Below, piece by piece: positions 9,293 through 27,176 of a DNA stretch of 49,664 bases. The position numbers and the translations under genes are program-made. Under the pieces are notes generated by a model. That model did not search any database. It was not told where the DNA came from and worked only from the letters and a program-made list of their open reading frames with translations. The stretch is from Desulfurococcales archaeon (GTDB taxonomy: Archaea > Thermoproteota > Thermoprotei_A > Sulfolobales > WAQK01), in the NCBI GenBank assembly GCA_027083135.1, contig JALWQH010000038.1, positions 1-49,664 on the forward strand. The letters run 5' to 3'. The first letter of the stretch is position 1, and the number at the start of each line of letters is the position of its first letter.

Positions 9293-9506
9293 CTTTACGT
9301 CCCCCTAGCTCCCTCTAATTAACGCCCTAAAATAGCTTTGTACGAGGTATTTCAAATAACGAGCATGTGGGTATTCTTTTGCCTGGGAGGCGTGACGCTA
9401 TGCCTGGAGCACCTATTATGCAGGGGCAGAAACATTAGATTATGGCCTTCCGTATTATTTGGTGTCTTTTGCGGCTTGGCAGGGTTTATATGTGTCGCTG
9501 GCTAAT
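9293..9506. other. Intergenic region upstream of the structured RNA candidate
   Basis: No ORF with coding character was found. It carries the minus-strand promoter of the coiled-coil gene near 9330 and, at 9484-9492, the plus-strand TATA box of the RNA candidate. The rest shows no repeat or recognisable motif. Confidence 0.5.
9484..9492 (+). promoter_or_regulatory. TATA box of the structured RNA candidate
   Basis: GTTTATATG is centred about 20-24 nt before the first base of the terminal helix at 9507. That is close to the normal archaeal TATA-to-start distance, and no protein gene follows it on this strand before 10008. Confidence 0.55.
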
Positions 9507-9659
9507 GGTTCTCCTAGGGCCCGGCTGGGCGATGGGAGCCGTTGCTCCGAGCCCCGCCGGGCATAATCTAGATGGGAGGCCCGTGCCGCTGGGCTTCTAG
9601 GCTCCATGAACCCAGGGGATGAGCCTAGCAGGTGAGCCCCCATGGGCGAGGAGGGAACC
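9507..9659 (+). ncRNA. Candidate structured non-coding RNA, about 153 nt, family unknown
   Basis: The ends pair: GGTTC (9507-9511) with GAACC (9655-9659), and TCCT (9512-9515) with AGGA (9649-9652). Four hairpins lie inside. Hairpin A stacks GCCCGGC/GCCGGGC (9519-9525, 9556-9562), GGGC/GCCC, then GGAGC-CGTT-GCTCC. Hairpin B is AGGCCC/GGGCTT (9577-9582, 9591-9596). Hairpin C is a perfect CTAGGCTC/GAGCCTAG (9597-9604, 9621-9628) with a 16-nt loop. Hairpin D is GCCC-CCAT-GGGC (9636-9647). A TATA box sits at the right distance upstream. It lacks the GAGGAAAGUC core of RNase P RNA, the SRP helix 8 motif and a tRNA T arm. It is the best-supported unassigned RNA in the window. Confidence 0.65.
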
Positions 9660-9690
9660 AATGAAAACCGCACCACGATGAAACAAAACA

Positions 9691-9948
9691 CTACAGAGTG
9701 AGGCGGTTAGAGGAAGCGGTCTGGGAACCCACTATTAGTTTCGACCAGTTCTTAATGTACAGTCTTATAAGTGTAGCCACCCTACGCGCCGCGTCCTCCT
9801 CCATGCATTTAGTAGCTAGTTCTCCACCATTCTTCGGATACACGATGACCCTGGCTTTCCCATCCTTGCATCTCTCTACCTTAACGTCGGAGATAAGACC
9901 CCATGCAGCCATTCCCTCTATAGCGCTGGGATTCGCCTCCATATGCAT
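9691..9948 (-). CDS. Conserved-looking small protein, unknown function
   Basis: An 85-residue protein I cannot assign. It has an alpha/beta look: a helix (about 6-18), then alternating strands with VKVERC and KARVIVYP, and a C-terminal helix with an aromatic-basic end. ATG 9948 lies about 30 nt from the symmetric TATA element at 9975-9983, so the message is probably leaderless. An ORF of the same length on the opposite strand is judged to be a shadow because its composition is unlike a protein. The gene converges on the structured RNA candidate, with 31 nt between their 3' ends. Confidence 0.6.
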   Translation of the reverse strand: MHMEANPSAIEGMAAWGLISDVKVERCKDGKARVIVYPKNGGELATKCMEEDAARRVATLIRLYIKNWSKLIVGSQTASSNRLTL

Positions 9949-9974
9949 CGCCTAGGCATCATGTATTCAGCTAG

Positions 9975-9983
9975 GTTAAATAC
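9975..9983. promoter_or_regulatory. Shared TATA element between divergent genes
   Basis: GTTAAATAC lies 31 nt from the ATG of the minus-strand small protein (9948) and 29 nt from ATG 10008 of the E1-like gene. One near-symmetric box could serve both directions with leaderless messages. Confidence 0.5.
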
Positions 9984-10007
9984 GTGTAGCTCTAATTATT
10001 GCGGCTG

Positions 10008-26765: not shown

Positions 26766-27065
26766 TTGACAAAAAGAGAATATAAGGATCGCAGGATAAC
26801 CATATGGCCCATATACATAGACTCCTCAGAGCCCCGTGGACAGGGTAGGAGGCTCCCACTAGGAGAGGCTGTACGTAAACCAAGAGTGGAGGAGATACTC
26901 GAGGCCGCTGAGGAGCTGGGCTTAAATCCCGAGAGAATAGAGGCATCATACCCTAGGAAATGGTGGAATATTAGAGAGGCAGTACTAGTAGATAAAAAAG
27001 GATCTAAGAGGGAGATCCTACGGGCAATAGCTTCAAAGATAAGGGAGAACAGGTTGAAACACTAG
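26766..27065 (+). CDS. srp19: Signal recognition particle 19 kDa protein
   Basis: The IWPIYIDSSEPRGQGRRLP segment near the N terminus and the SYPRKWW motif around residue 61 identify SRP19. It binds helices 6 and 8 of SRP RNA and allows SRP54 loading during protein targeting to the membrane. Length 99 is normal. TTG start. The SRP RNA itself was not found in the window. Confidence 0.94.
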   Translation: MTKREYKDRRITIWPIYIDSSEPRGQGRRLPLGEAVRKPRVEEILEAAEELGLNPERIEASYPRKWWNIREAVLVDKKGSKREILRAIASKIRENRLKH

Positions 27066-27118
27066 GTATTACCGCGAACCCTCATGGCATTCTAAGTATG
27101 GTTTCAAGGGCCCCAGCC

Positions 27119-27128
27119 TTTAAATAAT
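27119..27128 (+). promoter_or_regulatory. TATA box of the gar1-tfb operon
   Basis: TTTAAATAAT predicts transcription from about 27150. This rules against the in-frame ATG at 27132 and in favour of GTG 27177 as the start of gar1. Confidence 0.6.
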
Positions 27129-27176
27129 ACCATGGGTAATACCCTTAGATGCCATCCTACGGCCGGGGGCCTAGCG

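Follow-up and report, generated by a model that had tools for sequence, protein, structure and literature searches.

The IS200/IS605 and IscB systems are known to have stand-alone omega-RNAs as well as derivatives without protein genes (PATEs). Like the element described here, they keep the transposon ends and give guide RNAs that lack a neighbouring nuclease gene, but they belong with another transposase family and their RNA is different. IS607 transposons insert at GG, have GG at the element ends and cause no target duplication (PMC6188088). The RAGATH-18-derived reRNA of IS607 TnpB is structured, sits at the tnpB 3′ terminus and coincides with the right end of the transposon; its guide comes from the flank, and the left end bears a G-rich motif (PMC11061315). 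The present locus resembles these systems in each respect, but here tnpB and tnpA have both been lost, the promoter side joins the RNA directly, and that RNA belongs to an archaeal sequence family that no Rfam model matches. Sense-overlapping and circular omega-RNAs of Halobacterium (PMC12558985) are likewise archaeal, overlap tnpB, as the RNA studied here does in homologous elements, and have been shown to be expressed; they differ in belonging to the IS200/IS605 family and in retaining tnpB.

IS607-linked MITEs have been described in Staphylothermus marinus (14 copies of ~260 nt; PMC2678158). In the available part of that description they resemble the present element in being multi-copy, related to IS607 ORFs and, in some cases, disruptive of genes; they differ in being presented as inverted-repeat elements that look like the sequence preceding the ORFs, and no guide RNA is recognized there. 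If our genome G064 is S. marinus, its match at 346.6 kb to the covariance model R1, which we built from 39 copies of the RNA reported below, agrees with the MITE that splits Smar_0327/0328 in that part of the source. The match lies just beyond Smar_0325 at 345.5 kb, and most R1 matches in G064 are weak. A literature search spanning few subscription papers found no description of omega-RNA-bearing IS607 MITEs or of TnpB-less archaeal omega-RNA elements.

Extent and identity of the element

The locus lies in a window of 49,664 nucleotides (the whole stretch of DNA analysed) from a Desulfurococcales archaeon, whose assembly is referred to as the source genome. An earlier note had placed a new, unassigned structured RNA at 9507-9659. 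These limits are too short: in an alignment of own-family copies, similarity breaks off sharply at GGGCAGAAACATTAGATTAT on the left and at TTAGAGGAAGCGG on the right, and the flanks are unrelated, which sets the unit at 9424-9719 (296 bp, plus strand). The unit starts with GG-GCAGAAACAT and finishes with AAGC-GG, and no terminal inverted repeats are apparent by eye at its ends. MITE is a loose label for it, since IS607 elements have no such repeats. The left end (9424-9505, plus strand) is conserved among copies and bears the promoter; its motif GGGCAGAAAC also begins the full-length IS607 elements L041 and L058. The TATA box that had been noted ahead of the RNA (TTTATAT, 9485-9491, plus strand) is kept by almost every full-length copy in the genus, and transcription would be expected to start at ~9510-9515. 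GC content is 0.66-0.67 across the interval versus ~0.47 in the surrounding region.

The remainder of the unit, 9514-9719 on the plus strand, is both an omega-RNA (reRNA) scaffold and the right end of the element. The window copy scores 145.3 bits (E 1e-49) against R1, of which it is itself one of the 39 training sequences. Homology ties the RNA to the tnpB 3′ region and the right end of IS607 transposons. In other families its core (~9519-9655) directly follows a TnpB-like reading frame ending WHRDVVAVWNLL..., which extends into the RNA and gives tails such as GDGSGAPSPAGLNLDGSPVPLGSTAAHEP; the TnpB tail is thus translated omega-RNA. By our own count from the listings, 31 R1 matches begin 2-8 bases past a same-strand TnpB zinc-ribbon (TNB) domain. 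The full-length element L041 contains, in order, the left-end motif, an IS607 transposase (NF033518, 249.5 bits; cut-off 110), a 404-aa TnpB (TIGR01766 above cut-off; NF040570 at 84.6 bits, under its cut-off of 100) and the right end. The adjoining TnpB domains and the anatomy of L041 identify the RNA as the omega-RNA of an IS607 TnpB.

The element in the window encodes no protein, and its full-length relatives encode an IS607 serine transposase. A reading frame at 9442-9600 (plus strand) is no gene of its own: it holds the remnant GAVAPSPAGHNLDGRPVPLGF of a TnpB C-terminal tail, which matches the tail GDGSVAPSPAGPALDGRPVPLAS of the L030 TnpB, and a Pfam search with this frame gave no match. 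Short, multi-copy, complete at both ends and devoid of genes, the unit has the properties of a non-autonomous derivative. We conclude that 9424-9719 is very probably a non-autonomous (MITE-like) element of the IS607 family that carries an omega-RNA and has lost both genes.

Insertion site and host gene

The flanks beyond CGG are unrelated between copies, so that variable sequence stands directly after the right end. By homology to TnpB systems, the presumed guide is the ~16-20 nt of host flank at 9720-9739 (TCTGGGAACCCACTATTAGT, plus strand). At the left boundary of solo copies, the last base is G in 22 of 23 and the preceding base in 20 of 23; nearly all right ends read CGG. Judged from these boundary sequences, the ends appear to follow the IS607 rule. 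Joining the flanks of solo copies to restore genes gave no convincing case.

The earlier claim that no protein gene follows for 350 bp overlooked the minus strand, where a conserved gene (9691-9948, 85 aa, recognized from sister-genome homologues) holds the element in its 3′ end and terminates within it at 9691. Its last nine codons and stop are supplied by the element: the homologues terminate LIVTG-stop and LIIAG-stop, and the window gene, which terminates LIVGSQTASSNRLTL-stop, reads LIVGSQ followed by element-derived TASSNRLTL-stop. Only the gene end was compared because gene order around it differs in the two sister genomes from which these homologues come.

In several families, the homologue of this gene has a conserved stretch, TGATGA...GGTATTACCGYTGA, either at its 3′ end or downstream of it (L213, L214, L215, L216 and L217). 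The stretch resembles a C/D-box sRNA and is missing where the element sits in the window. Elsewhere in the window, at 27063-27150, an inverted-repeat stretch (GGTATTACC...GGGTAATACC) surrounds an intergenic-looking segment.

Structure of the RNA

On the plus strand, 9507-9659 folds at -82.5 kcal/mol (z -2.76), and only 1 of 200 dinucleotide shuffles is equally good, which agrees with the earlier view that the fold exceeds chance. The minus strand of the same interval folds nearly as well (z -2.36); the strand therefore cannot be fixed from folding alone. Compensatory changes in relatives, which had been suggested as a check, are abundant in the 39-copy alignment: 85.5% of cells are paired, 22 of 42 pairs have changed on both sides, and cells with such changes number 117 against 47.6 in shuffled alignments and at most 55 with slid partners, for a structure drawn by hand from this alignment and then scored on it. 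RNAalifold unaided recovers the first two hairpin domains. Covariation thus supports the fold, including the stacked hairpin.

This hairpin, originally delimited at 9519-9562, is conserved with compensatory changes at 9522-9559, where helix 1 (9522-9530/9551-9559) carries an apical hairpin (9535-9539/9544-9548); 90-99% of cells are paired and six pairs have changed on both sides. A second hairpin (9576-9581/9591-9596, spanning 9576-9596) has 92% of cells paired and four pairs changed on both sides, and the conserved GUGCCGYU sits in its loop. The third domain (9602-9654) is formed by 9602-9604/9650-9654 around a variable hairpin (9611-9619/9638-9646), and seven pairs across its three helices show changes on both sides. 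The variable hairpin folds in most copies and is lost in some copies of the source genome. All three domains lie on the plus strand.

Other helices of the proposed structure did not hold up as conserved features. The perfect 8-bp stem (9597-9604/9621-9628) is present in the window sequence but is not conserved, with 40% of cells paired, a level not above that of shuffles; the conserved fold re-pairs its strands, joining 9602-9604 with 9650-9654 and 9611-9619 with 9638-9646. The closing helix (9507-9512/9654-9659) is complete only in the window copy, and 16 other copies retain 0-4 of its 6 pairs. Beyond the third domain, the right-end hairpin region (9656-9719, plus strand) runs to the terminus AAGCGG; here AACC at 9656-9659 can pair with GGTT at 9705-9708, a pairing taken from the window sequence alone. 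The counterpart right-end hairpin of the other subtype, TCCCTA/TAGGGA, covaries.

No core of RNase P, SRP, tRNA, 5S or C/D RNAs had been seen in the interval, and database searches concur: Rfam gave no match at the gathering threshold anywhere in the window, relaxing E to 10 over 9300-9990 gave chance matches only (best 13.2 bits, PyrR205), and a tRNA scan was empty. Of the proposal of a new, unassigned structured RNA, the structure stands, since the RNA is conserved and covarying and has a conserved TATA box; the novelty of its class does not, as it is homologous to TnpB omega-RNA/reRNA. That is a known functional kind of RNA, though its archaeal sequence family is absent from Rfam. Conservation and covariation give good support to a structured RNA with its own promoter, from which it would be transcribed.

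Distribution and variation of copies

The source genome has 19 R1 matches, 11 of them strong (>100 bits). A DNA search with 9440-9760 gave 12 scored matches there, the long ones 71-77% identical over up to ~280 bases, and many matches in other families of the order. Of the 147 genomes of the order, 84 have at least one R1 match (43 of 61 genera), and matches extend to other families of the phylum. Protein-less copies number a dozen or more in many archaeal genomes. Of the 17 strong copies in the complete genome G021, 14 lack a neighbouring TnpB domain. G072 has ~47 R1 matches, 37 of them above 100 bits (the largest number seen), against nine TnpB zinc-ribbon matches, and G002, a genome just 87% complete, has six R1 matches against none; these zinc-ribbon counts are lower bounds for TnpB, and PF07282 misses paralogues that lack the zinc ribbon. 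IS607-linked MITEs are newly recognized here as carriers of omega-RNAs, and they often outnumber tnpB.

Most strong copies still have their left and right ends, the TATA box and a large part of the fold; several copies in the source genome are shortened or have a broken hairpin. One right-end-only fragment (C48:7138-7224; L061:501-587, minus strand) lies directly after a 232-aa gene. Some source-genome copies, such as L023 and L025, look mosaic, with near-identical RNA parts and other parts that differ, which suggests that recombination or gene conversion may have taken place among them.

Origin of the protein-less copies and their partner proteins

Solo copies occur in a relative, G030. Two of these, L043 and L044, nearly match the left end of the full-length element L041, including the tnpA start (ATGTTGGAGAGGTTGTTGAAGCCT), and pass from there straight into the omega-RNA at GCGGGGCGATGGGAGC; AAGCC is present at both breakpoints. 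Since they fuse the left end and first tnpA codons of L041 to the omega-RNA, L043 and L044 are internal deletions of an IS607 element. The deletion removed tnpA and tnpB but left the promoter part and the guide-RNA part in place. In layout, the window copy agrees with the G030 solo copies, namely left end, TATA box, omega-RNA and presumed guide from 9720. A direct full-length parent of the window copy was not found.

Four serine recombinases exceed the Pfam cut-off in the source genome, and no left or right ends of the element were found at their loci. Next to one omega-RNA copy, contig C16 encodes a 124-aa TnpB remnant that belongs to the same subfamily and is 67% identical to L041 over 158 residues; C48 encodes a 393-aa IS607 TnpB of a different subtype. 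This fragmented assembly of 57 contigs yielded no intact TnpB from the subfamily of the C16 remnant. Two further TnpB paralogues, on C6 (386 aa; L225:101-1261, minus strand) and C20 (cut by the contig end; L236:1-about 1300, minus strand), are 46% identical and lie next to IS607-type recombinases; a related omega-RNA, which scores 65.7 bits, lies at the 3′ end of the C6 paralogue. Both lack the zinc-ribbon cysteines, and PF07282 misses them while matching TiaS on C54. They also lack the RuvC-II glutamate, reading VIVGDV and VVVGNV where others read VMERL or ALEDL, and could thus be nuclease-dead TnpB or possess a rearranged active site. A PDB sequence search with TnpB gave no match at 1e-3.

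Proposed mechanism and alternative explanations

The element very probably derives from an IS607 transposon, composed of the serine recombinase gene tnpA and the RNA-guided nuclease gene tnpB, through loss of both genes, and consists of the left end with its promoter joined to the omega-RNA and right end. In the proposed mechanism, a transcript from the TATA box would start at ~9510-9515 and cross the right end into the flank, and the guide RNA would then consist of the scaffold and 16-20 nt of flank from 9720 onward. An IS607 recombinase could mobilize the element in trans by exchange at GG, and TnpB, also in trans, could bind the RNA and cut the empty site (left flank, GG and guide), which would favour retention of the copy. 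Guide use and cutting are modelled on established TnpB biology (PMC11061315, PMC8612924).

The structured RNA could instead be a host non-coding RNA of a new class, multi-copy by accident and unrelated to transposons, and a conserved promoter and fold without a match in Rfam would be expected of such an RNA. It abuts or overlaps tnpB in many genomes, however, where it forms the IS607 right end, and the solo copies of a relative are deletion derivatives. This link to tnpB refutes the host-RNA reading, to which we assign next to no probability, and a stand-alone new class is ruled out because the interval lies inside the dispersed repeat 9424-9719 and its homologues adjoin tnpB. Descent from an IS200/IS605-type transposon with a Y1 transposase, which would make the element a PATE, is suggested by the occurrence of TnpB in both the IS200/IS605 and IS607 families. 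We consider it exceedingly improbable and dropped it: the source genome has no Y1 transposase, the full-length parents carry an IS607 serine recombinase, and GG termini are a mark of IS607.

Orphan omega-RNAs might have been exapted and kept as dispersed trans-acting guides that are loaded by TnpB paralogues, two of them nuclease-dead-looking, to act as TldR-like RNA-guided regulators or genome guards in hyperthermophilic archaea. The excess of promoter-bearing RNAs over TnpB and the two source-genome proteins that lack the RuvC-II glutamate and zinc cysteines point in this direction. The guide sequences merely follow the insertion site, however, and the right ends of the paralogues differ. 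In the source genome, the only perfect match to the presumed guide (9720-9735) is its own site, and all others have at least two mismatches; 25 matches, one being the own site, occur at up to three mismatches, against 11 for a reversed control pattern. With no other match below two mismatches, a second target is not evident, and we regard such a regulatory role as unlikely. Decay to a transposon end without current function, its structure inherited from its time with tnpB, is considerably easier to envisage, and we deem it quite possible, if somewhat short of probable. The window copy may now be unused because the only TnpB of the same subfamily found in the source genome is a remnant, and the shortened copies and broken hairpins would also fit decay. 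Against this, most strong copies have lost neither end nor the TATA box and preserve much of their fold despite 71-77% identity, and paralogous recombinases and TnpB-like proteins persist in the source genome. A relic would share the identification as a non-autonomous IS607 element with an omega-RNA and differ only in present activity, so the two are not exclusive.

Significance

The interval 9507-9659 is a real, covarying RNA, the omega-RNA end of a non-autonomous IS607 element and no new RNA class. With R1, an IS607 omega-RNA family of archaea that is missing from Rfam now has a covariance model. TnpB is thought to aid transposon persistence by cutting the empty donor site. In these archaea the guide RNA seems to spread alone, as judged from the 14 of 17 strong copies without a TnpB domain in G021 and the ratio of 37 to nine in G072. 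It can now be tested whether elements that carry a guide but no protein gene make use of TnpB supplied in trans, whether TnpB is titrated or misdirected when a single cell contains many guides, and how hosts cope.
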